Shown here one piece after another: positions 11,754-39,095 of a DNA stretch of 39,095 bases (position 1 is its first letter; the number at the start of each line of letters is the position of its first letter). The stretch covers positions 1 through 39,095 of the forward strand of contig CAMSIF010000009.1 in NCBI GenBank assembly GCA_947058885.1, given 5' to 3'. The notes beneath the pieces were generated by a model. The model was given only the letters and a program-made list of their open reading frames with translations. It was not told the origin of the DNA and searched no databases. Origin of the DNA: an uncultured Clostridia bacterium. Lineage in GTDB: Bacteria; Bacillota; Clostridia; Oscillospirales; Oscillospiraceae. The translations under genes were made by a program, and so were the position numbers.

Positions 11754-11963
11754 TCAAAAATTTTCAGGTGTATTTTTGTCGATGACAACATTTCCGTTTC
11801 CGTCCAGCAGCGGTGTAATACAGGAGAGGGAGAGTCCGTCTCCGCCCGCCGCCAGATAATTAACGCCTGTAACTGTGTCGCAGATAACCGACAGACTGTA
11901 CATGCCAACCGCGTGGTTTTCCTTTACAGTAAACCGCTGCTTCTTTTTTTCCCTGCCAAACAT
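11754..11963 (-). CDS. Small protein, DUF6440-like
   Basis: 69 aa, FTVKENHAVGMYSLSVICDTVTGVNYLAAGGDGLSLSCITPLLDGNGNVVID; resembles DUF6440 proteins from memory. Lies between serC and serA, same strand. Confidence 0.65.
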   Translation of the reverse strand: MFGREKKKQRFTVKENHAVGMYSLSVICDTVTGVNYLAAGGDGLSLSCITPLLDGNGNVVIDKNTPENF

Positions 11964-11964
11964 A

Positions 11965-21897: not shown

Positions 21898-23211
21898 CTA
21901 TTTGCTGGAATTGATGTTTGTAATAATCGCCTTTACGGTGCCGGAGAAATTGGAGTCTGTTTTCATTTTCTTCTCCACCTTCCCAACGGAGTTATATACG
22001 GTGGAGTGATCTCTGCCGCCGAAGATTCTGCCGGTATCGTCCAGAGAGAGGCTGGTCATTCTGCGGATAAGGTACATAGCGATTTGTCTGGCGTTCAGGC
22101 AGTCCCTGCTGCGGGATTGTCCCTTAATCTGCTCCTCCTCGATTCGGAAGTAGCGGCAGACCTCCCGGATAATTCCCTCTGGAGTGATGATGAATTCGCT
22201 GGACCTGCTCATATCCTGGATAGCGCGGTCCACGGTCTCCCGGTTGATATCTATCCCGTCCAAGTCTTTGTAGGCCTTGATTTTTTTGACGGTTCCCTCA
22301 AGCTGCCGGACGTTGGCGGTAATTTTGTTGGCGATGTAGTGGGCAATTTCATCAGAGAGAATAAATCCAAGCTGCGCGGCTTTATTTTTCAGAATAGCGA
22401 CCCTTGTTTCCAGAGCGGGAGGCTGAACGTCAGCCATCAGACCCCATTCAAATCTGGTTCTGAGGCGGTCGTCCAGCTGCGCCATCTCATGGGGCGGCCG
22501 GTCGGATGTTAATACAATCTGTTTTTTACTCTCGTAGAGGGTATTAAAAGTGTGGAAGAACTCGTTTTGCGTTTCCACCTTTCCGGCGACAAATTGAATA
22601 TCGTCCACCAGCATGAGGTCGGCTTCACGGTATTTGGTTCTGAAATCTCCTGCTTTGCCGGACCGGACGGACTCAATGAAGTCGTTGATGAATTCATCGC
22701 CTTTGATATAAAGAATTCTGAAATTAGGGCTGTTATTTCGGATAACGTGAGCGATAGCGTAGAGAAGATGGGTTTTACCGAGCCCGGAGTCTCCATAGAT
22801 GAACAGCGGATTGTAGTGCTGGCCCGGCGCGTCGGCTACGGCTCGCGCGGCGGAGCAGGCCAGCCGGTTGGAGGGACCGATAACGAAGGTATCAAAGGTA
22901 AATTCTCCGCTCTCCATAAGGGACGTAGGTTTTTGCTCCTCCTTATTCTGGTATTGCCGGAGCATGTTGTCGTCCAGGAGACGGACGGAGATGTCCGCGG
23001 AGAAGATATCCTTGAGTCCCGCCTCGATGTTGGGGAGGAAGCGGTCCTGGATATTGGTGCGTTTAAAACTATTCGAGCAGTGGAGCACCAGTGTGTTCCC
23101 CTCCAGCGCGACCACTGTGGTTTCGTCGAACCAGGTTTTTATGGTGGTCTCTGACAGATCCTCCCGCAGTCTGGTCAAAATCATGGACCAGATATCGGAA
23201 ACAGATTGCAT
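21898..23211 (-). CDS. dnaA: Chromosomal replication initiator protein DnaA
   Basis: MQSVSDIWSMILTRLREDLSETTIKTWF; NPLFIYGDSGLGKTHLLYAIAH; VDDIQFVAGK; GGRDHSTVYNSVGKVEKK. Confidence 0.98.
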   Translation of the reverse strand: MQSVSDIWSMILTRLREDLSETTIKTWFDETTVVALEGNTLVLHCSNSFKRTNIQDRFLPNIEAGLKDIFSADISVRLLDDNMLRQYQNKEEQKPTSLMESGEFTFDTFVIGPSNRLACSAARAVADAPGQHYNPLFIYGDSGLGKTHLLYAIAHVIRNNSPNFRILYIKGDEFINDFIESVRSGKAGDFRTKYREADLMLVDDIQFVAGKVETQNEFFHTFNTLYESKKQIVLTSDRPPHEMAQLDDRLRTRFEWGLMADVQPPALETRVAILKNKAAQLGFILSDEIAHYIANKITANVRQLEGTVKKIKAYKDLDGIDINRETVDRAIQDMSRSSEFIITPEGIIREVCRYFRIEEEQIKGQSRSRDCLNARQIAMYLIRRMTSLSLDDTGRIFGGRDHSTVYNSVGKVEKKMKTDSNFSGTVKAIITNINSSK

Positions 23212-23271
23212 AGGGCAGCTTCCTTTCTCTCTTAATGGTGGGGGACAAACAATTTCTAATAATTCGATTAT

Positions 23272-23300
23272 AGTATACCAAAAAAGGCAATTAATTGCAA
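23272..23300 (-). promoter_or_regulatory. Putative dnaA promoter
   Basis: Minus strand TTGCAA-17 bp-TATACT; the -35 overlaps the perfect palindrome GCAATTAATTGC (23287-23298). Confidence 0.6.
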
Positions 23301-23429
23301 CAGACACTTATTCTAATAATAAGACGTAAAGAGGGGGCAGAATTCTCCATCTCCCGTCTATGGAAGGGACGGCGGCGGGATTTTCGCCTTGTTCTGGAAA
23401 GAATTCACCTTTCATTCATAGATTCCGGA

Positions 23430-23457
23430 TTGCTTTTCCTGTAGAATCTGTTATACT
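23430..23457 (+). promoter_or_regulatory. Putative zapA promoter
   Basis: TTGCTT-16 bp-TATACT. Confidence 0.5.
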
Positions 23458-23509
23458 TCACTATGGAATATTATCAAACGTCTACTGAACAGAAAGAGGA
23501 GGAGAAGAA

Positions 23510-23830
23510 ATGGCAAACCGCATTACCGTCACCATATGCGGAGAAGACTATACGCTTATGGCAGAGGAGAGTCCAGCCTATATGCAGAAGGTAGCGGCGC
23601 TGGTAGATGTACGGATCAGCGAAATCATGTCCTCTGGCCGGGTCAGCCGTATGGACGCGGCGGTGCTTGTGGCGGCAAACCTGGCGGACGAGCTGCTTAA
23701 GCAGCAGAGTACCGCTGAGAATCTTCGCAGCCAGCTCAAAGGCTACCTGGACGATGTAAATAAGGCGAAATCAGAGCTTAGCGAATGCAGGCGGGAGCTG
23801 TTTAAGCTTCAGCAGCAGAAGCAGAAGTAA
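23510..23830 (+). CDS. zapA: Cell division protein ZapA
   Basis: MANRITVTICGEDYTLMAEESPAYMQKVAALVDVRI...AAVLVAANLADELLK plus coiled-coil tail. Confidence 0.9.
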   Translation: MANRITVTICGEDYTLMAEESPAYMQKVAALVDVRISEIMSSGRVSRMDAAVLVAANLADELLKQQSTAENLRSQLKGYLDDVNKAKSELSECRRELFKLQQQKQK

Positions 23831-23836
23831 CGGATT

Positions 23837-25921
23837 ATGGAGCTTTTATCTCCCGCCGGCCATTGGGAAGCCATGGCAGCGGCGGTTCAGAACGGCGCGG
23901 ACGCGGTATATCTGGGGCTGAGCAGCTGCAACGCCCGCCGGGGCGCGAAAAATTTTGCGGATGAAGAATTTCCCGATGCGGTGCGGTACTGCCACCTGCG
24001 GGGCGTAAAGGTATACGTGACGGTCAATACGCTTTTAACTGACCGGGAATTACCGGCGGCTGAAAGGCTTCTGCGTCTCGCCAGCGCCAGCGGCGCGGAC
24101 GGCGCCATCGTTCAGGATTGGGGACTGACGGCTTTGGCCCGGTCCATTGTTCCGGACCTGCCGCTCCACGGAAGCACGCAGATGACCGTTCACTCCCTGA
24201 GCGGAGTAGAGCGGGCGGCTTCTCTTGGTATGGATTGTGTGGTGTTAAGCCGGGAGCTGTCAAAAGAGGATATAGTCTATATCTGCCGCCGCAGTCCTAT
24301 CAAAATTGAGGTTTTCGCACACGGGGCTCTTTGTATGTGTTATTCTGGTCAATGCTCCATGAGCGCACTGATTGGGGGCCGCAGCGGCAACCGGGGGCTT
24401 TGCGCCCAACCCTGCCGTCTTCCCTACCGGGTGGATGATGGAAAACAGGGTTATCCCTTAAGCCTAAAGGATGCTAATCTTTCCGGTCATCTTCAAGAGC
24501 TGGAGGACATGGGCGTATCCATATTGAAGCTGGAGGGCCGCATGAAGCGTCCGGAATACGTGGCGGTTATCACGCGTATCTACGCCGCTTTGCTGAGGGA
24601 AAACCGTCCTCCCACGCCGGAGGAGCTGGACCAGCTGAGCCAGGCGTTTTCCAGAGAAGGTTTTACGGAAGGCTACTGGGAGGGCCGGTTAGGACCTCAT
24701 ATGTTTGGGACGCGTCCGGAGAACGCGCCTAACCCGGAGGAGTTGTTCCGTTCTGCGAAAGCGGCCTATAGCCGGGAGGATCTCCGAACAGTTCCTGTTA
24801 TAATTTCAGCAAAAATTACAGCTTCTCATCTGTCTGAGGTTACGGTATCCGGTCCTGGCGGTTTGACCGCACATGTTACCGGTCCTGTGCCGGAGCCTGC
24901 CCGGAACCGTCCTTTGGAGCCGGAGGAAGTAAAATCCCGCCTTTCTAAAACGGGCGGTACGGTTTTCCGGCCGGAGCGGGTAGAGCTTACGCTTGGAGAA
25001 AATCTTTCTCTGCCGGCCAGCGCGGTGAACACTCTCCGCCGGGATGCTTTGGAGCGGTTGACAGATTTCAGCGTCCGCGTTCCGGAGAGAAGAGAGTTTG
25101 CTGTTCCTGATTTGCCGGAAAACGGCTTTCAGCCGTCCCAACTTCAGTTTACGGTATCTCTTACCGCCGCCAGTCAGTTGACGGAATATTTGGCAAACCA
25201 TGCTTCCATCATCTATCTTCCTATAGAACGGATTGAGGATTTCCCTCAGCTGCAAGGTCCGGCGGAATACTGCGCCTTGCTTCCTCGTATCTGTAAGGAC
25301 AGCGAGGAAAGGGAACTCCTGCGCTTATTGTCAGCGGCGAAGGAAAAGGGATGCGTATCCCTTGCCGTTCAGAATCTCGCACAGCTTGGTATGGGGGAAA
25401 AAGTACGTCTCCCTCTGCGCGGCGGATACGGCTTGAATGTATTTAACAGCCGTACTTTATACGAATTGGAATCATGGGGGTTCAAAAGCGCGGCACTCTC
25501 CTTTGAGCTCCGGTACGAGCAAATACGCGACCTGAAAAAGCCGCTTCCATGCGAGGCAATTGTATATGGGCGCCTTCCTCTTATGATAACGGAGAACTGT
25601 CTTATATCCAACGCGCAGAAGGGATGCTCCGCAGAGAGTTTGAAGGGTTCCTGCCGGTATTCGCACATACTTACGGACCGCCGTGGGGAAGCCTTTCCGA
25701 TTCTGCCTGCGTTTGGATGCCGCAGTGAAATAGAGAACAGCCGGATATTATATCTGGCGGATAAACCGGAATACCGGCGCAGTGGTCTTCAATACGCCCT
25801 TTTGAGATTTACCACGGAAACGCCGGAAGAATGCAGCAGTATTTTAGAACAGTATGAAAAGAGTAGTACCAATAAGCCAGAGAATTTTACGCGTGGGTTA
25901 TTCTACCGGGGTGTAGAATGA
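23837..25921 (+). CDS. U32 family peptidase
   Basis: MELLSPAGHWEAMAAAVQNGADAVYLG; FAHGALCMCYSGQCSMSALIGGRSGNRGLCAQPCRLPY; LKLEGRMKRPEYVA. Confidence 0.95.
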   Translation: MELLSPAGHWEAMAAAVQNGADAVYLGLSSCNARRGAKNFADEEFPDAVRYCHLRGVKVYVTVNTLLTDRELPAAERLLRLASASGADGAIVQDWGLTALARSIVPDLPLHGSTQMTVHSLSGVERAASLGMDCVVLSRELSKEDIVYICRRSPIKIEVFAHGALCMCYSGQCSMSALIGGRSGNRGLCAQPCRLPYRVDDGKQGYPLSLKDANLSGHLQELEDMGVSILKLEGRMKRPEYVAVITRIYAALLRENRPPTPEELDQLSQAFSREGFTEGYWEGRLGPHMFGTRPENAPNPEELFRSAKAAYSREDLRTVPVIISAKITASHLSEVTVSGPGGLTAHVTGPVPEPARNRPLEPEEVKSRLSKTGGTVFRPERVELTLGENLSLPASAVNTLRRDALERLTDFSVRVPERREFAVPDLPENGFQPSQLQFTVSLTAASQLTEYLANHASIIYLPIERIEDFPQLQGPAEYCALLPRICKDSEERELLRLLSAAKEKGCVSLAVQNLAQLGMGEKVRLPLRGGYGLNVFNSRTLYELESWGFKSAALSFELRYEQIRDLKKPLPCEAIVYGRLPLMITENCLISNAQKGCSAESLKGSCRYSHILTDRRGEAFPILPAFGCRSEIENSRILYLADKPEYRRSGLQYALLRFTTETPEECSSILEQYEKSSTNKPENFTRGLFYRGVE

Positions 25922-25975
25922 ACACAGTTGGTATAACAACAGAAGAAAAAGACATATAGTAAAAGGAAAGATCAA

Positions 25976-26422
25976 ATGAAATTAAAAATCAAGCCTCTCT
26001 CCCCTAAAATAGGCAAGGAAATCCCTCTGCCCTATTACGCTACGCCCGGCGCGGCCGCGTTGGACCTTCACGCTTGTATAGATAAGCCGTTGACTATACC
26101 GGGCGGAAGCCGGGTGTTGGTGCCTACAGGTATCGCAGTGGCGATTATGGAGAATCATGTAGGGATTGTAGCGGTGCGCAGCAGTATGGGCATACGTAAT
26201 GGAATAACGCTCAGTAATGGAATTGGGGTAATTGACAGCGATTATCGGGGGCCCATAGGGGTTGGCCTGCACAATTTAAATAAGGAGCCTTATACCATTC
26301 AGCCTGGGGACCGGATTGCGCAGCTGATGATAGTGCCGGTAACGCGTCATGAGATTGAAGTCGTATCGGAACTGCCTGAGAGTGAGAGAGGAGAAGGCGG
26401 TTTAGGTTCTACAGGCCGCTGA
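25976..26422 (+). CDS. dut: Deoxyuridine 5'-triphosphate nucleotidohydrolase
   Basis: TPGAAALDLHACID; VRSSMGIRNGITLSNGIGVIDSDYRG; GDRIAQLMIVP; RGEGGLGSTGR C-terminal motif. Confidence 0.96.
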   Translation: MKLKIKPLSPKIGKEIPLPYYATPGAAALDLHACIDKPLTIPGGSRVLVPTGIAVAIMENHVGIVAVRSSMGIRNGITLSNGIGVIDSDYRGPIGVGLHNLNKEPYTIQPGDRIAQLMIVPVTRHEIEVVSELPESERGEGGLGSTGR

Positions 26423-26426
26423 CAAA

Positions 26427-26487
26427 GGAGCGCGATTAAAATTCTTTTTTGATTCTTTTTTCTTATAAGAAAAAAGAATGACTACCG
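26427..26487 (+). repeat. Dispersed palindromic repeat, copy C
   Basis: GCGCGATTAAAATTCTTTTTTGATTCTTTTTTCTTATAAGAAAAAAGAATGAC; perfect 28-nt palindrome 26452-26479. Confidence 0.85.
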
Positions 26488-26511
26488 AAGAAAAATATGA
26501 GGAAACCACCT

Positions 26512-27099
26512 ATGTCTCGTATTATACTAGCATCTCAGTCTCCCCGCCGCCGCCAGCTGTTGGACCAGATTGGTCTGACTGGTTACGAAATTCTGGTACC
26601 GCAGGCGGACGAAAGCTATGAACCTTCTCTCCCTCCTGCCGAAATTGTCCGCTCCATTTCCCGCAAGAAAGCGGAAGCGGCATCCCGTCTTGCCGGAGAT
26701 TCCGAGGCTCTTATCATCGCTGCTGATACGATGGTATTTCTGGATTCGCTTCGCCTTGGGAAACCTCACAGCGAACAGGAAGCTTATTCTATGCTTACTT
26801 CCCTTTCTGGCCGGACCCATGAGGTCATTACGGGGATCACGGTTCTCCAGGGCAGCCGCATGGAAACCTGCTCAGATATGACAGGCGTTACGTTCCGCTC
26901 TCTGACAGATGCGGAAAAGTGGTCGTATATCCGTACCGGGGAGCCGATGGATAAGGCAGGAGCCTATGGCGTTCAAGGTAAGGCGGCCCTTTTTGTTACC
27001 GGCATCAGCGGCGATTATTTTAATGTTATGGGACTCCCCTTGCATTTGCTTGGACAAATGCTTTCCAGCTTTGGAATGGATTTCTTTTCTTTTTCTTGA
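26512..27099 (+). CDS. maf: Maf-like nucleotide pyrophosphatase
   Basis: MSRIILASQSPRRRQLLDQIG; AADTMVFLDSLRLGKP; GEPMDKAGAYGVQGKAALFV; ISGDYFNVMGLPL. ATG at 26512 preceded by GAGG; the track start is 26497. Confidence 0.94.
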   Translation: MSRIILASQSPRRRQLLDQIGLTGYEILVPQADESYEPSLPPAEIVRSISRKKAEAASRLAGDSEALIIAADTMVFLDSLRLGKPHSEQEAYSMLTSLSGRTHEVITGITVLQGSRMETCSDMTGVTFRSLTDAEKWSYIRTGEPMDKAGAYGVQGKAALFVTGISGDYFNVMGLPLHLLGQMLSSFGMDFFSFS

Positions 27100-27138
27100 A
27101 AGAAAAAGAAACAAAAAGAACTTTAATCTCGCTACCAG
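27081..27138 (-). repeat. Dispersed palindromic repeat, copy D (overlaps maf 3' end)
   Basis: TTTCTTTTTCTTGAAAGAAAAAGAAACAAAAAGAACTTTAATCTCGCTACC; palindrome 27086-27111. Confidence 0.85.
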
Positions 27139-27192
27139 GAATGATTTTATCCAACCTTACCGCCCGGTAACGATTGAAAAGGAGGCGGTCGA

Positions 27193-28029
27193 GTGAAGCA
27201 GACCGACAAATTCGCTATTATGCTGCTATCCATAGCGGCGGCCATCGCCGTCCTGCTTAGCATCATGACATATCTATCTACCAATTCCTCCATTTTGCCC
27301 GATATCGCCGGAGTCATCGCAACCCCCTTCCGTTCCGTCTCCTCCACCATCACCAACACCATTGACGGCTGTCTCGCCTATATGTCCGATTTCGACGCCC
27401 TCAAGGAAGAAAACGAACGCCTCAAACTCCAAATCGCGGAGATGGAAGAGGAAGTCCGCCAAGCAAAGGCCGACAGCGACGAAAACGCCCGCCTCCGGGA
27501 CCTGGCCGAACTCCGCGAACAGCGCCGTGACCTGCACCTGGAATCCGCCCGTGTTTTGGAACAGGACGCCTCCAATTGGTCCAGCATGTTGACAATCAGC
27601 AAGGGTACCTCCCAGGACATTGAGACCGGCGACTGCGTTATTACCGAGGCTGGCTATTTGGTAGGCGTCGTCACTGAAGCCGGTCTTAACTGGGCTACTG
27701 TCCGCACAATTCTGGACAGTTCCTCCTCTATTGGAGCCATGATTTTCCGCAGTGGAGCCAGCGCGCTGGCCCAAGGCGATTTTGCTCTTATGAGCGAAGG
27801 CCGTCTGACGCTCTCCTATTTGGGTACAACTCCAGACCTGGTTTCCGGCGATCTCGTCATGACCTCCGGCCTTGGCGGCTACTACCCCTCTCAGGTCGTC
27901 ATTGGCTCGGTAGAGGAAGTCCGCGCCAGTGACGACGGCCTGGACCAGGTTGCGGTAGTGCGTCCCTCTGCGGATATCGAATCCCTGACACAAGTATTTG
28001 TAGTTACCAGTTTCGACATAGTCGAGTGA
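27193..28029 (+). CDS. mreC: Rod shape-determining protein MreC
   Basis: N-terminal TM; coiled coil; ARVLEQDASNWSSMLTISKGTSQDIETGDCVITEAGYLVGVVTEAG; GLGGYYPSQVVIGSVEEV. Confidence 0.93.
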   Translation: MKQTDKFAIMLLSIAAAIAVLLSIMTYLSTNSSILPDIAGVIATPFRSVSSTITNTIDGCLAYMSDFDALKEENERLKLQIAEMEEEVRQAKADSDENARLRDLAELREQRRDLHLESARVLEQDASNWSSMLTISKGTSQDIETGDCVITEAGYLVGVVTEAGLNWATVRTILDSSSSIGAMIFRSGASALAQGDFALMSEGRLTLSYLGTTPDLVSGDLVMTSGLGGYYPSQVVIGSVEEVRASDDGLDQVAVVRPSADIESLTQVFVVTSFDIVE

Positions 28030-28062
28030 CAAACCGCCGGCGGAAGGAGTGCATGGCCTGTG

Positions 28063-28572
28063 ATGCCAAAAAGTTATATTGTATTTAAGTGGGTTATTTA
28101 CAGTCTGGCAACGCTTTTTATGATGGCCTTTCAGGCCTTACTGCTCAACCAGATTGAAATTATGGGAGTTATCCCGTTTCTCTATCCCATGCTGCCCGCT
28201 GTGGTGTCCATGTATGAAGGCGGCCGCCGGGGTCCTGTTTTTTCCTTGATTTTCGGCCTTGTATGCGACCTTCTGATCCCCTCCCCGTTTAAGGGCTTTT
28301 TTACCATTGCCTTTACGCTTTCCGCCCTGCTCTCGTCCCGGGTTGCGGAGGATTTACTCTCTCCTGGTTTCCTCTGCGGTATTTTGGTATCCGCCCTTTC
28401 CCTGGCTCTGACAGGATGCCTCCGTATTTTTATTGGTCTTCTTTCCGGCGGCGGATATCTGGAGCTTATGGCGTGGATAGCCTTGATAGAATCTCTCGCC
28501 ACCCTTCCTTTTGCCGTCATAGTTCTCCCAATCTATGGGACAATTCATAAACGCTGCGCGGTGGATTACTAA
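28063..28572 (+). CDS. mreD: Rod shape-determining protein MreD
   Basis: Hydrophobic ~170-aa protein immediately after mreC; GPVFSLIFGLVCDLL pattern. Confidence 0.85.
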   Translation: MPKSYIVFKWVIYSLATLFMMAFQALLLNQIEIMGVIPFLYPMLPAVVSMYEGGRRGPVFSLIFGLVCDLLIPSPFKGFFTIAFTLSALLSSRVAEDLLSPGFLCGILVSALSLALTGCLRIFIGLLSGGGYLELMAWIALIESLATLPFAVIVLPIYGTIHKRCAVDY

Positions 28573-28602
28573 AGAGATTATTTGCTGAGAAAGGAGTCGC
28601 CT

Positions 28603-30792
28603 ATGGAAGATAGAAAACGTTTTCATCTGCGTTCAAATATTTTGGTCGTGGCGTTTCTGGCCTGTCTGTTTGGTTTCATCTGTATTCTTTACAACGCTCA
28701 GGTAGTCCATGGCAAGGATTATCTCGCGAAATCCAACACCCAGGTTACGACTACCCAGACGGTTGAGACGTCCCGGGGCATTATCACAGACCGCAACGGC
28801 AAAATACTGGTTTCCAACGAAGAAACCTATTGCGTTAATTTTGACCCCAAAGAGGTTCCGGCCAGTTCGGATCCGGATGTCAGTCAGAAGCAGACCATAG
28901 CCTGCGCGGTTCTCCGTCTCCTGAAGCTATGTCAGGAGTACGGCGTTACCTGGACGGACGGCCTCCCCCTCTCTACAGAAAAGCCTTTCTCCTACACCCT
29001 TTCTTCAGTTCAGAGCAGAGAACGCACATATCTACAACGGTATCTTGCTGACCGGGGCTGGTCGGAGACAGAGCTGACGGAGACCACCGCGTTTCCCCTC
29101 ATGACAGAGAAGCTGAAGGAAGAACTGCAAGTATCCTCCCGTCCTCTCTCCGCTAATCTGTTGTTCCAGCTGATGCGGAAGGATTTTGATATTCCAGAGG
29201 ATTTTACTGATGAGGAAGCCCGGTTGGCTATGGGTGTGCTCTATGAGTTGTCTCTCCGAACTCTGCCGAAGCCAAACACAGTAAATATTCCTTATGAATT
29301 TGCAAAGGATGTACCTGTAGAAGTTATTTCTATCCTTCACGACGGCAATTTTGATGGCGTATCGGTAGGTATTAAAACGGTCCGCCAGTACAACACAGAT
29401 TACGCCGCCCATATTTTAGGCCGTGTAGCCGCCATAGACACCAAGGAGGAGCGGGATGAACTGAACGCTCCCTATGCCGCCGCCCAGGCGGCAGGCCAGG
29501 ATACTTCCAGCATTCACTACTACCAGCCAGACGATAAGGTTGGCAAGGATGGTGTGGAAAAGGCGTTTGAGAAATACCTCTGCGGCCTGGAGGGAAAGCG
29601 GCTTATTACCACGGACCGTAATGGAAAGATTACCAGTGAGCTCTATTCCATTGAGCCGAGGCCTGGGGATACGGTGTCCCTGACGATTGACATTGATTTC
29701 CAGGAGAAGGTGGAAAAGATTCTGGCCCAGTCCACCCAGACCATGATTGAAGAGGACGGCATTGAGGACCGTGGTTCCGCAGCGGCGGTAGTCAGCGTGG
29801 CGGATGGTGGTATTCTTGCGCTGGCCAATTATCCGACATACAGCCAGCGCACCTATCTGGAAAATTACACGGAATTGGCGGAGAATCCGGGCCATCCCTT
29901 TACCAACCGGGCTTTGACTGGCGCCTACGCTCCCGGTTCTACCTTCAAGCCCTGTACGGCGGTGGCGGCGGTGGGCAGCGGAGTTATCACCACCACATCT
30001 ACCATCAACGCTTTGGGCAAATACACCTACTGGCCGGGTTATCAGCCTTGGTGCTGGCGGCGTACTGTCCCATGTCATGGCCGGATTAACGTTTCCCAGG
30101 CGATTTTCCATAGCTGCAACTACTTTTTCTATGAAGTGGGCCGCCTGATGACTATTGATGTAATGGGCGAGTATGCGGCGGCTTTCGGCCTGGGCCAGCC
30201 TACAGGTGTGGAAATCTGGGAAAACACTGGAGTAATGGCCAGCCCGGAGTATTCCCAATCTCAGGGAGTACCCTGGGTGGGAGGCAACACAATTCAGGCG
30301 GCTATTGGGCAGGGCGACAGCTCCTTCACCCCCCTCCAGCTTGCCAATTATATTGCTACCTTGGTTCGCGGCGGAGAGCGTTACGGTGCTCATCTTCTCA
30401 ACAATGTCATTTCCTATGACGGAAGCGAGACGGTATTGGATTACGAGCCTGAGGTGCTGGCTACGGTAAATATGACAGAAGAGACCTTGGAGGCGGTAAA
30501 AAAGGGTATGGGCGAACTGGCCTCCAAGGGCAGTATTTCCAAGTACTTTGCCGATTGCGTAGTAACCGCCGGGGCCAAGACGGGCAGTGCGCAGCTGGGC
30601 GACAGCAACACCAACGGCGTATTTGTCTGCTTCGCCCCCTTTGAGGAACCTGAAATCGCGGTAGCGGTAGTGATTGAAAAGGGCGGCAGCGGCGCGGCGG
30701 TGGCGTCTACGGCTGTAGAGATTCTTAACGCCTATTTCTCCGACAGCGATATCGGCGCGATGATGGTGCCAGAGGGTACGCTTCTTCCCTGA
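28603..30792 (+). CDS. mrdA: Penicillin-binding protein 2 (elongasome transpeptidase)
   Basis: SRGIITDRNGKILVSNE; AYAPGSTFKPCTAVAA (SxxK); AKTGSAQ (KTG); mreCD context. Confidence 0.93.
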   Translation: MEDRKRFHLRSNILVVAFLACLFGFICILYNAQVVHGKDYLAKSNTQVTTTQTVETSRGIITDRNGKILVSNEETYCVNFDPKEVPASSDPDVSQKQTIACAVLRLLKLCQEYGVTWTDGLPLSTEKPFSYTLSSVQSRERTYLQRYLADRGWSETELTETTAFPLMTEKLKEELQVSSRPLSANLLFQLMRKDFDIPEDFTDEEARLAMGVLYELSLRTLPKPNTVNIPYEFAKDVPVEVISILHDGNFDGVSVGIKTVRQYNTDYAAHILGRVAAIDTKEERDELNAPYAAAQAAGQDTSSIHYYQPDDKVGKDGVEKAFEKYLCGLEGKRLITTDRNGKITSELYSIEPRPGDTVSLTIDIDFQEKVEKILAQSTQTMIEEDGIEDRGSAAAVVSVADGGILALANYPTYSQRTYLENYTELAENPGHPFTNRALTGAYAPGSTFKPCTAVAAVGSGVITTTSTINALGKYTYWPGYQPWCWRRTVPCHGRINVSQAIFHSCNYFFYEVGRLMTIDVMGEYAAAFGLGQPTGVEIWENTGVMASPEYSQSQGVPWVGGNTIQAAIGQGDSSFTPLQLANYIATLVRGGERYGAHLLNNVISYDGSETVLDYEPEVLATVNMTEETLEAVKKGMGELASKGSISKYFADCVVTAGAKTGSAQLGDSNTNGVFVCFAPFEEPEIAVAVVIEKGGSGAAVASTAVEILNAYFSDSDIGAMMVPEGTLLP

Positions 30793-30832
30793 TGGCATGG
30801 TTTGTATGTTTTTTCCAGTTATCTTATGTCAA

Positions 30833-30848
30833 TGTTTCACGTGAAACA
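30833..30848. promoter_or_regulatory. parS: parS site 1
   Basis: TGTTTCACGTGAAACA, within the 22-nt palindrome CAATGTTTCACGTGAAACATTG. Confidence 0.97.
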
Positions 30849-30878
30849 TTGGAAACAAGAAAAAGGAGACCCTTGTCT

Positions 30879-32756
30879 ATGCAGATTCCAGTTTTTGACT
30901 CCAGGGACCCTCGATATAAGGCTCCCTTTGGCGCGGTCCCATGCAATACAAAACTCAGCTTTACCGTCCGCCCTTCAGCGGCGGAAGGTTTCACGTCCTG
31001 CGTTCTCCTGATATTCCGGGAGTTTGAGGGGCGGCATGAGGAAGTTCCCCTCCACCCTGCCGGGGCGGAGGGGGATTGCTTTCTGTTTTCCTGCGAGTAC
31101 GAGGCTCCCGCACAGCCGGAATTGATTTGGTACAGTTTTCGGTTTTCCCGTGCCGGCGGCTCTGTTTTGCTGCTGGACAACGGCGGTCTCAATTGGCAGC
31201 TGACAGTCTACGACGCTTCCCTTCCTACGCCGGACTGGTTTGGCAGCGGAGTGACATATCAAATTTTCCCGGACCGGTTTCGCCGGACTGGCCTGCCGGA
31301 ATCTGCTGGCCTGCTGGGAAACCGCCGTATCCATCAGAACTGGGACGAAGCGATGGAGCTGCCGGAGGACCAGGAAGGCTTGCCTGGCAGGGATTTCTTT
31401 GGCGGCACCTTGGCGGGAATTACGGAGAAGCTGGATTATTTGAAGGGGCTGAGTGTGTCGACATTATATCTTTGTCCCATTTTTGAATCTGAGAGCAACC
31501 ACCGGTATAACACGGGAGATTACGAAAAAATTGATCCTATGCTGGGTACGGAAGAGGACTTCTGCCGTCTCTGCGCCGAGGCAAAAAAACGGGGTATCCG
31601 GGTGATGCTGGACGGCGTGTTTAACCATACGGGCAGCAACAGCCGCTATTTTAACGCCGCCGGGGCCTATCCCTCCCCCGGCGCGGCTCAAAGTCAGGAC
31701 AGTCCGTATTATTCCTGGTATACCTTCCAATCCTGGCCGGAAGAATATGACGCCTGGTGGGGCATAAAGACCCTTCCCGCAGTTAATGAGGAAAACCCGG
31801 AGTATGTTCAGTTTATCATTGAGGGGCATAATTCTGTTATTCGCCGGTGGCTTCGGGCGGGCGCGGATGCCTGGAGATTGGATGTGGCCGACGAGCTTCC
31901 GGATGAATTTATTGCCCGTATTCGTAGGGCTATGATGGAAGAAAAACCGGATAGTTTTCTTCTTGGCGAGGTTTGGGAGGACGGCAGTAATAAAATCTCC
32001 TACAGCAAACGCAGAAAGTATCTTTTGGGCCGGGAGACCCACGGTTTAATGAACTATCCTTTTCGGGTAGCCGCGCTGAGCTACCTGCAAGGCTTTAATG
32101 GTGAGGAACAGCCTTACACCGCGCGGGATTTTATGGAAGCTATGGAGACTATCCGGGAGAATTATCCTCCGGCTGCCTTTTATAACGGTATGAATATGCT
32201 GACTACCCACGATACTTCCCGTGCTTTGACACTTCTTGGCGGTCCCCGTCCTGCGCCGGAGACCCGCAGGGAGCGAGCCGCCTACCGTATGACCCATGAG
32301 GAGCGGGAACACGGAAAAAGTCTTTTGAAGCTGGGCGTTCTTCTGCTCTACGCCTTTCCTGGTTCTCCCACAGTTTTCTATGGAGATGAGGCAGGCATGG
32401 AGGGCTATGAGGACCCCATGAACCGAGGGACTTACCCCTGGGGGCGTGAGGACCAGGAATTGCTGGAGTATTACCGGATTTTAGGGAAAATCCGGGCATC
32501 CCGCGCTTCTTTGCAAAAGGGTACGCTTCGCTGGCTTCACGCGGAGGGACCGGTTCTGGCTTTTGCCCGTGACTGGAGCGGCGAGACCTCCGCCGCTGTT
32601 CTAAATGCTGGAAAAAATGCAGTGGAGCTTTCTATCCCGTGGTCTGGCGGTTTCGCCGCAGACATCTTGGGCGGACAACGGTTGGCCGTTCTGGACGGGC
32701 AAATAAAGCTCTCCCTCCCCCCTTTTGGCGGAGTGCTGCTGTCAAATACTACCTGA
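30879..32756 (+). CDS. Glycoside hydrolase family 13 (alpha-amylase/neopullulanase-like)
   Basis: GVTYQIFPDRFRR; VMLDGVFNHTG; AWRLDVADELP; LLGEVWEDG; LTTHDTSRAL. ATG 30879 after AAAAGGAGA; the upstream part of the track ORF is parS leader. Confidence 0.93.
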   Translation: MQIPVFDSRDPRYKAPFGAVPCNTKLSFTVRPSAAEGFTSCVLLIFREFEGRHEEVPLHPAGAEGDCFLFSCEYEAPAQPELIWYSFRFSRAGGSVLLLDNGGLNWQLTVYDASLPTPDWFGSGVTYQIFPDRFRRTGLPESAGLLGNRRIHQNWDEAMELPEDQEGLPGRDFFGGTLAGITEKLDYLKGLSVSTLYLCPIFESESNHRYNTGDYEKIDPMLGTEEDFCRLCAEAKKRGIRVMLDGVFNHTGSNSRYFNAAGAYPSPGAAQSQDSPYYSWYTFQSWPEEYDAWWGIKTLPAVNEENPEYVQFIIEGHNSVIRRWLRAGADAWRLDVADELPDEFIARIRRAMMEEKPDSFLLGEVWEDGSNKISYSKRRKYLLGRETHGLMNYPFRVAALSYLQGFNGEEQPYTARDFMEAMETIRENYPPAAFYNGMNMLTTHDTSRALTLLGGPRPAPETRRERAAYRMTHEEREHGKSLLKLGVLLLYAFPGSPTVFYGDEAGMEGYEDPMNRGTYPWGREDQELLEYYRILGKIRASRASLQKGTLRWLHAEGPVLAFARDWSGETSAAVLNAGKNAVELSIPWSGGFAADILGGQRLAVLDGQIKLSLPPFGGVLLSNTT

Positions 32757-32765
32757 GGCCGTATG

Positions 32766-32808
32766 CAGGGCAATGTTTCACGTGAAACATTGCCCTGTTT
32801 TTGTTGTT
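32766..32808 (+). terminator. Intrinsic terminator of GH13 gene; its stem is an extended parS palindrome
   Basis: CAGGGCAATGTTTCACGTGAAACATTGCCCTG (32-nt perfect palindrome, 32766-32797) followed by TTTTTGTTGTTTTT. Confidence 0.85.
32774..32789. promoter_or_regulatory. parS: parS site 2
   Basis: TGTTTCACGTGAAACA exact. Confidence 0.97.
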
Positions 32809-32856
32809 TTTATGCTCTGGTTGAATAATTTGTGCAAAATTTTTCCTAATTTCCTG

Positions 32857-32884
32857 TTGAAATGCGGCGGCTTTGTGTTATACT
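32857..32884 (+). promoter_or_regulatory. Putative parA (soj) promoter
   Basis: TTGAAA-16 bp-TATACT. Confidence 0.5.
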
Positions 32885-32956
32885 ATACAGTACAGCTAAA
32901 AAAATGGATACGGGAGCTCCAATTGACCCTCCTGTGTCCTTTAGGGAGGTGTACCT

Positions 32957-33715
32957 GTGGCAAAAATCGTGACAGTTGTCAATCAAAAGGGCGGCGTGGG
33001 AAAAACCACAACCTGTATCAATTTGACTGCCGCTTTGCGGGAAAAGGGCTTGAAAGTCCTGCTGTGCGACTTCGACCCCCAGGCAAACGCGACCTCCGGT
33101 ATGGGTGTGGATAAGGCCTTATCTCTGGGGGTTTATGACGTGCTGCTCAACCATGTGGAACCGCGAAAACGGGTGGTCTCTACCCGATACGGCGATGTGC
33201 TGCCCTCTTCTAAAGGACTGGCGGGAGCCGGCGTGGAAATGGTTGGCCTGGACAACCGGGAACATCTGCTGCGAAAAGCTTTGGAAGAGCTTTCGCCGGA
33301 TTATGATTACATATTCGTGGACTGCCCGCCTTCCCTGGAGCTGCTGACGCTCAACGGCCTCTGTGCCGCGGACAGCGCGTTGGTGCCGGTGCAGAGCGAA
33401 TATTTTGCCCTGGAAGGTCTCAGCGATTTGATGTATACCATCCGCGCCGTGCGGCGGTCCCTGAATAAGAAGCTGGAGCTGGAGGGCGTGCTTATGACCA
33501 TGTTCGACAGCAGAACCAATCTGGCTTTACAGGTGGCGGAGGAGGTCAAAAGGTTCTTCCCTGGGAAGGTGTACGCCACGGTGATTCCCCGGAATGTACG
33601 CCTCAGCGAGGCCCCCAGTCACGGAAAACCAATCAGCGCCTATGACCGGGCTTCCCGAGGGAACGAGGCCTACGCGAAGCTGGCTGAGGAGTTTCTGCGA
33701 AAAAACAAAAAATAG
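32957..33715 (+). CDS. parA: Chromosome-partitioning ATPase ParA/Soj
   Basis: MAKIVTVVNQKGGVGKTTTCINLTAALREKGLKVLLCDFDPQANATSGMG; FVDCPPSLELLTLN; IPRNVRLSEAPSHGKP. GTG start. Confidence 0.97.
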   Translation: MAKIVTVVNQKGGVGKTTTCINLTAALREKGLKVLLCDFDPQANATSGMGVDKALSLGVYDVLLNHVEPRKRVVSTRYGDVLPSSKGLAGAGVEMVGLDNREHLLRKALEELSPDYDYIFVDCPPSLELLTLNGLCAADSALVPVQSEYFALEGLSDLMYTIRAVRRSLNKKLELEGVLMTMFDSRTNLALQVAEEVKRFFPGKVYATVIPRNVRLSEAPSHGKPISAYDRASRGNEAYAKLAEEFLRKNKK

Positions 33716-33921
33716 TATTTGTTTTTCTAGCTAGAAACGTTGGCCTCGCAGATGGAAACGGAACTTTATGGAAAGAATACTCCTTTCCTGTACCCATAAA
33801 AATTATGAGATGATTGGTATGATTTGTGTATTTTGCGGCGTTATGCGGTAATCTATAACCAGTGCGGCGCAAAGGCGGGTTTGGCGTCCGTCTAGGACTT
33901 CAGAGCAAAGGAGAATCCTCT

Positions 33922-34791
33922 ATGGCAAAAGAAAAAGGCTTGGCAAAGGGTTTGGGCGCACTGCTGGGAGACGATTTCTCCGCCGATTTTTCTGCCCCCG
34001 CTTCCACCCTGCCTATTTCTCAGATTGAAAATTTTCGCGGCCAGCCTAGAAAGAGCTTTGATCAGCAAAAGCTGGAGGAGTTAGCGGACTCCATTCGCCA
34101 GCATGGCGTTATTCAGCCGTTGACGGTGCGGCGGCTGTCTTCCGGTTACTACCAGATTATTGCCGGGGAGCGCCGCTGGCGGGCGGCACGGCTGGCCGGT
34201 TTAACGGAAATCCCCGCTGTGGTCATTGAGGCCGACGACCAGAAGGCCATGGAGCTGGCGATGATTGAAAACCTCCAGCGGGAGGACCTTAACCCGATGG
34301 AAGAGGCCGAAGGCTATCGAATTTTGGTACAGGCTTACGGTATGACGCAGGAACAAGCCGCCGCCCGGGTAGGAAAATCCCGCAGCGCGGTAACCAACGC
34401 TATGCGGCTCTTGGATTTGGCGGCGCCGCTGCAAGATATGGTGGCCGAAGGGAAGCTTTCCGCAGGGCACGCCAGGGCTGTTCTGCCCCTCTCCCCTGCC
34501 CTGCGGGCGGAAGCAGTGAAAATTGTGGTGCAGTCCGGGCTGAACGTCCGGCAGACGGAACAGCTGGTGAAACAGCTGCAGGCCAGAGACGAAGAAAAAA
34601 CTGGTAAGGACGAGGAAAAAAAGCCTGCGGCGGTGGATTATGTGGCGGAGGCCGAAAAATCTTTATCTGACCGGCTTGGCAGAGCCTGCCGCATCTCCCA
34701 CGGAAAAAAACGGGGAAAAATTGAGATTGAATACTACGGCGTGGACGACCTTAACAACCTCCTGGAAGTGTTGGAGGGAATTGGGAAATAA
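33922..34791 (+). CDS. parB: Chromosome-partitioning protein ParB/Spo0J
   Basis: KGLAKGLGALLGDD; PRKSFDQQKLEELADSIRQHGVIQPLTVR; IAGERRWRAARLAGL; IENLQREDLNPMEEA; HTH QEQAAARVGKSRSAVTNAMRLL. ATG 33922 after AAAGGAGA. Confidence 0.97.
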   Translation: MAKEKGLAKGLGALLGDDFSADFSAPASTLPISQIENFRGQPRKSFDQQKLEELADSIRQHGVIQPLTVRRLSSGYYQIIAGERRWRAARLAGLTEIPAVVIEADDQKAMELAMIENLQREDLNPMEEAEGYRILVQAYGMTQEQAAARVGKSRSAVTNAMRLLDLAAPLQDMVAEGKLSAGHARAVLPLSPALRAEAVKIVVQSGLNVRQTEQLVKQLQARDEEKTGKDEEKKPAAVDYVAEAEKSLSDRLGRACRISHGKKRGKIEIEYYGVDDLNNLLEVLEGIGK

Positions 34792-34792
34792 A

Positions 34793-34808
34793 TGTTTCAC
34801 GTGAAACA
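34793..34808. promoter_or_regulatory. parS: parS site 3
   Basis: TGTTTCACGTGAAACA exact, 2 nt after the parB stop codon. Confidence 0.97.
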
Positions 34809-34840
34809 TCCTTTTTGGAAAATTTCAACAGGAGGCATAT

Positions 34841-36145
34841 ATGCTGGATATCAGGTTTATCCGGGAAAACCCGGAAGCTGTGAGAGAAAATATAAAAAAG
34901 AAATTTCAGGAGGCCAAGCTGCCTCTGGTAGAACAGGTATTGGAGCTGGACGGGAAAAACCGCGCCGCTATTACCGAGGCCAGCGAACTGCGCGCCCAGA
35001 GAAATGACCTCAGCAAACAGATAGGTATGCTCATGGGACAGGCGAAAAAAGATCCCTCTAAATTGGAAGAGGCAGAAAAGGTCAAGGCCCGGGTAAAGGC
35101 TAACGCCGAGCGTTTGGCGGAGCTGGAGGCCCAGGAGGGAGCGTTTGAGGAGCAGATTCGTAAAATTATGCTGCAAATCCCCAATATTATTGACCCCTCT
35201 GTGCCTATTGGCCCGGACGACAGCGCAAATGTGGAGGTGGGACGGTTCGGAGAGCCGGCGGAACCGGATTTTGATATCCCCTACCACACTGAAATTATGG
35301 AGCGGTTCGACGGAATTGATATGGAAGCCGCCGGAAGAGTGTCCGGAAATGGGTTCTACTACCTGATGGGCGATATGGCAAGACTTCACGAGGCTGTGCT
35401 GGCTTATGCCCGGGATTTTATGATTGAAAAGGGATTTACCTTCTGCATTCCGCCGTTTATGATTCATGGAGCGGTTGTGGAGGGCGTCATGAGCCAGACC
35501 GATATGGATGCCATGATGTATAAAATCGAAGGCGAGGACCTGTATCTTATCGGTACCAGCGAGCACTCCATGATTGGTAAGTTTATTGACCAGATTCTGC
35601 CGGAGGAAACACTGCCCCAGACGCTGACTTCTTATTCGCCCTGCTTCCGTAAGGAAAAAGGAGCGCATGGAATTGAGGAGCGGGGCGTTTACCGTATCCA
35701 TCAGTTTGAAAAACAGGAGATGGTTGTCGTCTGTAAGGGCGAGGAGGCCATGGACTGGTACGAGAAGATGTGGCGGTTCAGCGTGGAGCTGTTCAGAAGC
35801 CTGGATATTCCTGTCCGGCAATTGGAGTGCTGTTCCGGAGATTTAGCGGACTTGAAGGTTAAAAGCTGCGATATTGAGGCCTGGTCCCCCAGACAGAAAA
35901 AATATTTTGAGGTCTGTTCCTGCTCTAATATGGGCGATGCCCAGGCCAGGAGATTGAAAATCCGGGTAAAGGGTGAGAATGGCAAGAATTATTTGCCCCA
36001 TACATTGAATAATACTGTTGTAGCGCCGCCTAGAATGCTTATCGCTTTTCTGGAAAATAATTTACAGGAGGACGGGAGCGTTCGGGTACCCGCAGCGTTG
36101 AGGCCCTATATGGGCGGAAAGGAAATCCTGACCCCCAAGCGTTAA
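34841..36145 (+). CDS. serS: Seryl-tRNA synthetase
   Basis: MLDIRFIRENPEAVRENIKKKF; LIGTSEHSMIGKFIDQILPEETLPQTLTSYSPCFRKEKGAHG...GVYRIHQFEKQEMV; NNTVVAPPRMLIAFLENNLQEDGSVRVPAALRPYMGG. Confidence 0.97.
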   Translation: MLDIRFIRENPEAVRENIKKKFQEAKLPLVEQVLELDGKNRAAITEASELRAQRNDLSKQIGMLMGQAKKDPSKLEEAEKVKARVKANAERLAELEAQEGAFEEQIRKIMLQIPNIIDPSVPIGPDDSANVEVGRFGEPAEPDFDIPYHTEIMERFDGIDMEAAGRVSGNGFYYLMGDMARLHEAVLAYARDFMIEKGFTFCIPPFMIHGAVVEGVMSQTDMDAMMYKIEGEDLYLIGTSEHSMIGKFIDQILPEETLPQTLTSYSPCFRKEKGAHGIEERGVYRIHQFEKQEMVVVCKGEEAMDWYEKMWRFSVELFRSLDIPVRQLECCSGDLADLKVKSCDIEAWSPRQKKYFEVCSCSNMGDAQARRLKIRVKGENGKNYLPHTLNNTVVAPPRMLIAFLENNLQEDGSVRVPAALRPYMGGKEILTPKR

Positions 36146-36185
36146 GCGTACTGCGCTAATTTATATGAAGAAGGAGATCGCTGCT

Positions 36186-36593
36186 ATGAAAAAGTTCCTG
36201 AAGGTTTTGGGCGCCGCCGCTTTGATTGCCGGTTTTACTCCCTACCAGGTGGAAAAAAATGAGGAAACAGGCGAGCGGACGGTAAAAGCTCTGCTGTGGA
36301 AGGCATCTAAAAAGCCCAGCCCCAGCGGAGATAAGGATGACATTACCATCAAATTTTTGTCCTTTGGGAAGGACGAGGAAGAGGCTCCCCTGTTCAGCGA
36401 TGAGTTGACTGTGGAGTACTCCCCCCGCCAGGACGGCGAGGCAGTCAAAGTGGATGACAGCGTCTCTATGGAGGAAAATATAGAGATGCCCGAACCGCCA
36501 GAGGCCCCCGAGCCTCCGGAGGCTCCAGAAGTGCCGGAAGCACCGGAAGCTCCTGAGCCGCCAGAGGCCCTGGAAGTGTCTGAAGAGGCGTAA
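36186..36593 (+). CDS. Hypothetical protein with hydrophobic N-terminus and Pro/Glu/Ala repeat tail
   Basis: MKKFLKVLGAAALIAGFTPYQVEKNEETGERTVKALLW... PEPPEAPEPPEAPEVPEAPEAPEPPEALE. Confidence 0.75.
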   Translation: MKKFLKVLGAAALIAGFTPYQVEKNEETGERTVKALLWKASKKPSPSGDKDDITIKFLSFGKDEEEAPLFSDELTVEYSPRQDGEAVKVDDSVSMEENIEMPEPPEAPEPPEAPEVPEAPEAPEPPEALEVSEEA

Positions 36594-36624
36594 AAGACTG
36601 CACAAAAGATAAGGAAGCTGTGTT

Positions 36625-37020
36625 ATGAAGAAGTTTTTGGAGGAGTTTAAGGCCTTCGCTATGCGGGGAAATGTGATGGATTTGGCCGTGGGCGTTATTG
36701 TGGGCGGCGCGTTCAGTTCCATCACCAACTCCCTTATTAACGATATTATTATGCCTGTTGTTGGTATTTTTGTCAGCGAGGCCAGCTTTGCGGATTTAGC
36801 TGTGCAGGTTGGGCCGGCTGTCATTACCTATGGCAATTTTATTCAGGCGGTTATCAATTTCCTGATTTTGGCGTTTGTTGTTTTCTGTATGGTAAAGGCC
36901 GTAAACCGGGTTGCGCGGAAGAAAACCGAAGAACCGGTTAAGCCTCCTGTGCCGCCGGAACCCTCCAATGAAGAGAAGCTTCTGACGGAGATACGGGACC
37001 TGTTGAAGGAGAAGGGATGA
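36625..37020 (+). CDS. mscL: Large-conductance mechanosensitive channel MscL
   Basis: MKKFLEEFKAFAMRGNVMDLAVGVIVGGAFSSITNSLINDIIMPVVG; C-terminal NEEKLLTEIRDLLKEKG. Confidence 0.96.
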   Translation: MKKFLEEFKAFAMRGNVMDLAVGVIVGGAFSSITNSLINDIIMPVVGIFVSEASFADLAVQVGPAVITYGNFIQAVINFLILAFVVFCMVKAVNRVARKKTEEPVKPPVPPEPSNEEKLLTEIRDLLKEKG

Positions 37021-37709
37021 GGGAGACCCTATATAAGGGCCTCCCCGCCCTGGGCCTTGATACTGGTTTGGTTCCACAACTGGAGCTGTTTGCGGGGATG
37101 TTACTGGAGAAGAACCAGGTCATGAATTTGACTGCAATTACGGAACCGAAGGACGTGGCTGCGCTGCACCTGCTGGATAGTTTGGCTTTGACAGCATGGC
37201 TGAAGGATGAGCGCGTGGTAGATGTGGGAACTGGGGCTGGATTTCCTGGGATACCGTTGGCGGCGGCTCTGCCAGAGGCTAAGTTCACGCTGCTGGACAG
37301 CTTGGGAAAGCGGGTTGGGTTTTTGCGGGAGGCCTGCGGTGAGCTGGGATTGGAGAATGTGGAGTGCGTGCAGGCGAGAGCGGAAGAGTTTGCTGGGGAG
37401 CGTCGGGAGGTTTTTGATTGTGCGGTGAGCAGGGCGGTGGCGGATTTGCCGGTGTTGTGCGAGTTATGTTTGCCGCTGGTGAGGGTAGGCGGAAGGTTTT
37501 TGGCGATGAAGTCCAGCCATTCAGAAGAGGAGGTCCGGAGGGCGGAAGGAGCCTTGGAGGTTCTGGGCGGTAAGATTGGTTGGGTGAGGGATTATACCAT
37601 TCCGGTCACTGATGTGGTGCATCGTGTGGTGTGTGTGGAGAAGGTCTCCCCTACCCCGAAGAAGTATCCGAGAAGATTTGCGCAAATAAAGAAGCAGCCA
37701 TTAGGCTAG
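37017..37709 (+). CDS. rsmG: 16S rRNA (guanine527-N7)-methyltransferase RsmG (GidB)
   Basis: EKNQVMNLTAITEPKDVAALHLLDSL; VVDVGTGAGFPGIPLAAALPEAKFTLLDSLGKRVGFL; CAVSRAVADLPVL. ATGA overlap with mscL. Confidence 0.95.
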   Translation: MRETLYKGLPALGLDTGLVPQLELFAGMLLEKNQVMNLTAITEPKDVAALHLLDSLALTAWLKDERVVDVGTGAGFPGIPLAAALPEAKFTLLDSLGKRVGFLREACGELGLENVECVQARAEEFAGERREVFDCAVSRAVADLPVLCELCLPLVRVGGRFLAMKSSHSEEEVRRAEGALEVLGGKIGWVRDYTIPVTDVVHRVVCVEKVSPTPKKYPRRFAQIKKQPLG

Positions 37710-37710
37710 G

Positions 37711-37772
37711 GCGCGAAGCGCGATTAAAGTTCTTTTTGATACTTTTTCTTTCAAGAAAAAGTATGAATGCCC
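37711..37772 (+). repeat. Dispersed palindromic repeat, copy E (reference orientation)
   Basis: GCGCGAAGCGCGATTAAAGTTCTTTTTGATACTTTTTCTTTCAAGAAAAAGTATGAATGCC; palindrome 37739-37764. Confidence 0.85.
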
Positions 37773-37794
37773 AAATAGAGAGGAGGGTATCCCT

Positions 37795-38538
37795 GTGGGA
37801 GAAACAATTGCCGTCGTCTCAGGAAAGGGCGGCACGGGGAAAACTTCGTTTACGGCGAATGTGGGTATGGCGTTGGCGCAGTTGGGGTACTCTACTCTGT
37901 GCTTGGACTGCGACGTAGGACTGAGGAATCTGGATATTGCGATGGCTATGACAGACCAGGCGATGATGGATTTTACTGATGTTCTGGCGGGGAGCTGTTC
38001 TCTGGAAGAGGCGGCGGCGCCGCATCCGCAGCAGAAACGGCTGTTTTTGTTGACTGCGCCAGCGAGGATTGGCGTAGGAGGGATTGACCCGGAGGAATTT
38101 CGGGAGCTGTTTCCTGTGATTGAGGAGAAGTTTGATTATTGCCTTGTGGATGCGCCGGCGGGATTGGATAGTGGATTCCGGCTGGCGGTAAGCGGGGCGG
38201 ACAGGGTTGTGGTGGTAACCACGACGGAGGAGAGCAGTCTGCGGGATGCTCAGCGTACGGCGATGGAGTTGGACAGGCTGCCGAGGGATCGGGTACATTT
38301 AGTGGTCAACAGGTGTCGGAAGAAGTTGTTGAAGTCTTTGCATCAGACGATTGACGACGCGATTGATGCTGCGGGGCTGCCTCTGTTGGGGGTGATTCCG
38401 GAGGATGAGACAATGCCGTTGTACGCGGGAAGGGGGGAGCCGCTGCTATTGAGTGGGAACGACTGTGCCGCCAGGGCATACCGCAATATTGCAAGGCGAA
38501 TTGATGGCCGGCGGACACCTCTTATGAAAATCAGATGA
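37795..38538 (+). CDS. MinD-like P-loop ATPase (orphan, lacks C-terminal membrane-targeting extension)
   Basis: AVVSGKGGTGKTSFTANVGMALAQLGYSTLCLDCDVGLRNLDIAMA; FDYCLVDAPAGLDSGF; ends NIARRIDGRRTPLMKIR*. GTG start after GAGGAGG. Confidence 0.85.
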   Translation: MGETIAVVSGKGGTGKTSFTANVGMALAQLGYSTLCLDCDVGLRNLDIAMAMTDQAMMDFTDVLAGSCSLEEAAAPHPQQKRLFLLTAPARIGVGGIDPEEFRELFPVIEEKFDYCLVDAPAGLDSGFRLAVSGADRVVVVTTTEESSLRDAQRTAMELDRLPRDRVHLVVNRCRKKLLKSLHQTIDDAIDAAGLPLLGVIPEDETMPLYAGRGEPLLLSGNDCAARAYRNIARRIDGRRTPLMKIR

Positions 38539-38598
38539 CTCCATGTAGCCGTCAGCAGCAGAGAGACATCAAAGGAAACGGAAAGGAAACGAGATGCC

Positions 38599-39012
38599 AT
38601 GTATATTGCTCTGATGTCCCACGACAATAAGAAGGACCTGATGGTCCAGTTCTGCTCCGCCTATGCCGGTATTTTGTCCCGGCACAATCTTTGCGCCACG
38701 AGTACCACTGGGCGCATGGTGGCTGAGGCCACCGGGTTGCATGTTCATCTCTTCTTGACTTGCCGGCATGGTGGGAGCCAGCAGATTGGCGCTAGAATTG
38801 CTTATAATGAGATGGATATGGTGTTGTTCTTTGTTGACCCGAATGATTCTGCGTTGGAAACTGAGTCGCAGTATATTTCCAGATTGTGTGATCAGAATAA
38901 TATTCCTTATGCCTCTAATGTTGCCACGGCGGAGATGCTTTTGCTTGGTATGGACAGAGGAGACCTTGACTGGAGAAAAATTGTGAATCCGAAGCATAAA
39001 TTGAATCGTTGA
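38599..39012 (+). CDS. Methylglyoxal synthase-like protein with substituted active site
   Basis: MYIALMSHDNKKDLMVQF; ATSTTGRMVAEATGLHVH; GGSQQIGARIAYNEMDMVLFFVDP; NIPYASNVATAEMLL. Confidence 0.85.
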   Translation: MYIALMSHDNKKDLMVQFCSAYAGILSRHNLCATSTTGRMVAEATGLHVHLFLTCRHGGSQQIGARIAYNEMDMVLFFVDPNDSALETESQYISRLCDQNNIPYASNVATAEMLLLGMDRGDLDWRKIVNPKHKLNR

Positions 39013-39048
39013 GGTTGGCTTTTTTACCCTATTTTGTCAGGCTCTCGT

Positions 39049-39095
39049 AGATCGGAAGAGCACACGTCTGAACTCCAGTCACACTAAGATATCTC
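39049..39095. other. Illumina TruSeq-type i7 adapter with index ACTAAGAT
   Basis: AGATCGGAAGAGCACACGTCTGAACTCCAGTCAC-ACTAAGAT-ATCTC; exact reverse complement of the left end. Confidence 0.99.

Follow-up and report, generated by a model that had tools for sequence, protein, structure and literature searches.

This locus raises the question of whether one piece of DNA can serve as a binding site for the partition protein ParB and, once transcribed, as an intrinsic transcription terminator. It lies ahead of the soj-parB genes in the window, i.e., the whole stretch of 39,095 nt that was analyzed, and a preliminary description of the sequence had proposed both roles for it. We consider it very probable that a chromosomal parS inverted repeat has been co-opted here as the upper half of an intrinsic terminator, with termination and ParB binding as its predicted activities. 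The relevant features of the window are the following.

30833 to 30848, no strand: second parS, an internal control located between the PBP2 and GH13 genes, extended by 3 bp and lacking a T-tract
30879 to 32756, + strand: GH13 (alpha-amylase family) gene that would be ended by the terminator; its start codon was assigned by the Shine-Dalgarno-like AAAAAGGAG
32766 to 32797, + strand: 32-bp perfect palindrome, predicted terminator hairpin with parS inside (sequence, fold, terminator score)
32774 to 32789, no strand: parS core TGTTTCACGTGAAACA, predicted ParB site (exact consensus match)
32798 to 32811, + strand: T-rich tail TTTTTGTTGTTTTT, which would supply the U-tract of the terminator (sequence)
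32857 to 32884, + strand: promoter-like site upstream of soj, TTGAAA-16-TATACT with TG before the -10 (consensus match only)
32957 to 33715, + strand: soj, ParA-type ATPase (AAA_31/CbiA)
33862 to 34791, + strand: parB/spo0J (ParB_N, HTH_ParB, ParB_C)
34793 to 34808, no strand: third parS, an internal control located between parB and serS, extended by 1 bp and lacking a terminator stem

A parS core within a predicted terminator hairpin

The core at 32774-32789 matches the 16-bp parS consensus TGTTNCACGTGAAACA (PMC2346475) exactly. Three exact cores are present in the window (30833, 32774 and 34793) versus 0.10 expected, and none of 100 shuffled versions of the window contained three. The genome assembly to which the window belongs holds these three exact cores and one further copy with a single mismatch. 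Besides matching the consensus, the cores cluster near parAB, and the ParB encoded in the same genome possesses ParB_N and a ParB HTH domain. A second ParA/MinD-type ATPase gene, distinct from soj, is found at 37795-38538 and adjoins rsmG (gidB).

As the preliminary description had recognized, the core lies at the center of a 32-bp perfect palindrome, CAGGGCAATGTTTCACGTGAAACATTGCCCTG at 32766-32797, which is the longest perfect palindrome in the window. Around a given parS, naive chance would yield the additional 8+8 bp of symmetry with a probability of about 4^-8. The RNA copy of 32766-32797 is predicted to fold into the 14-bp stem with an ACGU loop that had been proposed, at -22.7 kcal/mol. 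Directly 3' of the palindrome follows the T-rich tail; its presence had been noted earlier, but with an end at 32808, 3 nt short of the actual end at 32811. The location at the 3' end of the GH13 gene and ahead of soj holds as well, with 32756 as the last position of the GH13 stop codon and the hairpin beginning 9 nt after it. The longest open reading frame of the GH13 gene starts at 30792, while 30879 is the start chosen here.

What is characteristic of an intrinsic terminator is thus found in the sequence, i.e., a stable stem with a short loop, a U-tract oriented with the upstream gene and a nearby stop codon. Within the 17 kb from 22000 to 39095, the top terminator-like match is this very hairpin, with 15 pairs including one G-U. 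The terminator score of the element at 32766-32811, calculated by the d'Aubenton-Carafa formula and used only for the contrast between sense and antisense, is +51.8 on the + strand and -16.0 on the - strand. The opposite strand is devoid of a T-tract, so that the hairpin is terminator-like solely in the direction from GH13 to soj. The promoter-like site at 32857-32884 follows approximately 45 nt beyond the T-rich tail. A scan of 30500-35000 against Rfam gave no match up to E = 1.

Neither of the two other parS sites of the window, at 30833 and 34793, combines a stable stem with a terminator-like tail. Two further long perfect palindromes lie elsewhere in the window: ATACTTTTCTTTTCGCGAAAAGAAAAGTAT of 30 bp at 10790-10819, by the possible start of a + strand open reading frame (10818-11993), is possibly an operator or a terminator, and ATTCTTTTTTCTTATAAGAAAAAAGAAT of 28 bp at 26452-26479 is located between the end of one open reading frame (26422) and the start of another (26497).

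Arms around parS in the genus and at soj-parB loci

For the genus, we took the soj neighborhood and other places carrying parS from other genomes and recorded all exact cores. Arms of 6-13 perfect bp flanked one or more parS sites upstream of soj in 10 of the 16 genomes whose soj region was readable, the window included, and were absent in the other six. Many relatives have a parS with neither arms nor T-tract, which counts in part against the proposal of the preliminary description; the arrangement is recurrent and not universal. The arm sequence itself varies by species: 3' arms read, e.g., cgccggac, tcttgccctctt, atccgctttcttt, tacccctg and gcccgg, compared to ttgccctg in the window. In three relatives, a parS hairpin lies some tens of nt past the stop codon of each of two consecutive genes ahead of soj (L029:1211 and 2301, L033:3341 and 5048, L044:3048 and 4331). 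The first gene of the pair in L033 and L044 resembles the final gene of an rnf-type operon, as judged from the translated N-terminus only. Four extended sites (L029:2301, L033:5048, L042:5030 and L064:3858) carry long, GC-rich perfect arms with no clear T-tract, their tails being pyrimidine-rich and free of T-runs; their palindromy may be kept for another reason.

For a wider sample, 60 genomes of the family and 80 named contigs from many phyla were added to the genus set. This yielded 130 unselected parS sites located 0-1600 nt upstream of soj at 90 loci. As a control, flanks were exchanged between parS sites in 3000 permutations. Perfect arm extensions of at least 6 bp were found at 23 of the 130 sites, versus a permuted mean of 0.31 and a maximum of 3 in any of the 3000 permutations. 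Arms of this length together with a sense T-tract occurred at 15 of 130 sites (0.15 expected, maximum 2). Flank pairing over all unselected sites exceeded the permuted control up to the ninth extension position, with the first two positions favoring A/T symmetry (62% and 56% paired). Among the 23 extended sites, 21 of the six-base arms were different. Pairing is kept while the bases change, which means that the structure is retained and the sequence is not. Such covariation of the arms is predicted for an RNA hairpin and would not be predicted for an extended, sequence-specific protein contact.

The T-tract has a clear polarity. It was found on the sense side of 17 and on the antisense side of 3 out of 25 extended sites, whereas the 98 unextended sites were balanced (14 vs 12). 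A terminator score above 10, read again for the strand contrast only, was reached 13 times in sense and once in antisense orientation. Extended hairpins begin at a median of 24 nt past the stop codon, and 84% of them start between -10 and +60 relative to it, compared to 47.5% of unextended sites. At four loci (L101, L117, L126 and L182), G-U wobbles bridge to further pairs, in the sense orientation only, which is the behavior predicted for RNA. A parS-terminator candidate was also found in Coprococcus catus (L145:3786), where it precedes soj by 216 nt. None of the 33 parS sites in the parB-serS or soj-parB interval was extended by at least 6 bp.

Occurrence beyond the genus and alternative explanations

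Across 293 genomes of the class Clostridia, a T-tract was found near parS in 64 and an A-tract in 67, i.e., there is no bulk excess of T-tracts over A-tracts, and the signal becomes visible only when stem and tail are taken together. Arms of at least 5 perfect bp were present at 14 of 31 T5 sites and of at least 9 bp at 8 of 31, reaching up to 20 bp; for the A-tract control sites the numbers were 10 of 34 and 3 of 34. Four AT-rich cases (L213, L223, L230 and L231) show T-runs on both strands.

In the Burkholderiaceae, a T5 follows parS in 12 of 60 genomes, and 11 of these 12 sites possess matching arms of 4-10 bp, counting G-U. The armed sites lie 22-43 nt past a stop codon and carry the T-tract on the sense side; their arm bases differ, and several of the pairs are G-U. 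Paraburkholderia is among the carriers. The reversed, A-tract control picked six other genomes of the 60, all of ~2 Mb, and matched none of the genomes with the T-tract form. Several of the T5 genomes carry another parS at a distance of roughly 1.5 kb; the second copies sampled mostly have extensions of 0-1 bp, and some are located within coding sequence. Burkholderiaceae represent an independent lineage with the same arrangement. Further scattered cases were observed in other Pseudomonadota (L327, L328 and L335). The hairpin of L335, with symmetric 12-bp arms, T-runs on both strands and open reading frames that stop 61-83 nt away on both strands, is probably a bidirectional terminator. In Bacilli, no armed parS was seen in a small sample, in part with a variant core.

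A longer dyad could also have been selected as DNA, as a cruciform or as a longer contact for ParB that aids ParB loading or SMC recruitment, with the T-tract being incidental. This would account for the four extended sites that show no clear T-tract, for the extended palindromes in the A-tract control (at least 5 bp in 10 of 34) and for the A/T symmetry at the first two extension positions. However, a role as DNA is expected to be strand-symmetric and independent of gene ends, and both the marked preference of the T-tract for the sense strand (17 vs 3) and the close spacing to stop codons count against it. Moreover, G-U wobbles occur on the sense side, parS sites located after soj or parB are not extended, and a published binding study in Burkholderiales equates the ParB site with the 16-bp palindrome (PMC5450999). 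We regard selection of the dyad as DNA as quite unlikely. Pure coincidence, in which a terminator hairpin happens to hold a parS and no pattern recurs, is scarcely credible. Although parS by itself forms a hairpin of 6-7 bp, leaving a small step to a terminator-like element, and only one of the three sites in the window is armed, the permutation results (23 vs 0.31 and 15 vs 0.15) and the recurrence across many genera and in Burkholderiaceae speak against chance.

Co-option of parS as a terminator stem, in turn, is based on the observed anatomy of the element, arm covariation, T-tract polarity, position at gene 3' ends and recurrence in separate lineages. The proposal that one DNA is both a parS and a terminator hairpin is well supported by the covariation, polarity, stop codon spacing, sense G-U pairs and the Burkholderiaceae cases; the many relatives whose parS has neither arms nor T-tract weigh on the other side. 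Termination in the cell and ParB binding to the copy at 32774-32789 are predictions.

Consequences of the probable co-option and relation to known systems

At the DNA level, the central 16 bp would serve as the binding site of ParB/Spo0J and as the place where it is loaded as a clamp. At the RNA level, the same 16 nt together with the 8-nt complementary arms on each side would form a stable hairpin followed by the U-tract, which would release RNA polymerase where the GH13 transcript ends, ahead of the soj-parB promoter. The element would act in one direction only. Because the T-tract is located downstream of parS, polymerase would have to cross the entire parS before release. Such a terminator could therefore insulate soj, but could not shield its own parS from polymerase. 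Since parS already is a perfect and obligatory inverted repeat, the evolution of outer arms and a T-tract would suffice, which would explain why the fusion could occur repeatedly with different arms.

In addition to co-option, the element might work as a regulated switch. ParB bound to parS would roadblock polymerase or alter the hairpin, and read-through into soj-parB would depend on ParB occupancy, resulting in autoregulation. The position of the hairpin between the upstream gene and the promoter-like site of soj would fit, and in Pseudomonas aeruginosa native ParB represses genes adjoining the intergenic parS3 and parS4 (PMC5521831), making effects on adjacent transcription plausible. On the other hand, a promoter-like site belonging to soj lies beyond the hairpin, spreading of ParB could repress the soj promoter with no need for a terminator, and a ParB roadblock would halt polymerase ahead of hairpin transcription. 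We consider such a switch unlikely. Unlikely, too, is the broader notion that these elements form a convergent and widespread class with dual roles as DNA and RNA in which ParB occupancy and termination affect each other. Either the ParB clamp would stall polymerase before the hairpin, or polymerase reaching the U-tract would clear ParB, and insulation of soj-parB would be tied to loading of the partition complex. The functional link between partition-complex assembly and parAB insulation that the preliminary description had drawn is put forward here as a hypothesis.

If co-option is true, a single sequence would be a centromere and, when transcribed, a terminator, and this in two or more distantly related groups of bacteria. 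This would account for where parS can sit in compact genomes, namely at gene 3' ends, and would represent a simple evolutionary route in which outer arms and a T-tract are added around an existing inverted repeat. It would also offer a natural system for studying how the passage of RNA polymerase and the loading of ParB are accommodated on one and the same 16 bp, with arms and core being separately mutable.

The reuse of a DNA signal in terminators is already established for the DNA uptake signals (USS/DUS) of Neisseria and Pasteurellaceae (Kingsford 2007, PMC1852404). The open-access literature searched contained no account of parS acting as a terminator, which weakly suggests that the parS version is new. 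In both cases a DNA recognition sequence builds the terminator hairpin, for parS at 23 sites versus 0.31 expected. In USS/DUS terminators, however, two inverted uptake signals form the stem, and they make up a large share of terminators genome-wide; two inverted signals and hundreds of copies per genome are not found for parS, where one palindromic centromere site is the apical stem, with a few copies per genome near soj. As in P. aeruginosa, where parS3 and parS4 affect transcription of neighboring genes, an effect on a neighboring gene is predicted here, but there ParB acts on promoters, whereas the RNA copy of parS is proposed to act here with no need for ParB.

Like the parS sites of Soj-Spo0J (ParABS) systems, the site in the window matches the 16-bp consensus exactly, is clustered at soj-parB and is present in several copies near rsmG/gidB. 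Unlike the typical parS, for which descriptions usually give a 16-bp DNA site only, it centers a 32-bp palindrome with a U-tract. With intrinsic (Rho-independent) terminators it shares a GC-containing hairpin just past the stop codon, followed by a U-tract on the sense strand only. It differs from ordinary ones in that the upper stem is fixed by the consensus of a DNA-binding site and only the outer arms vary.
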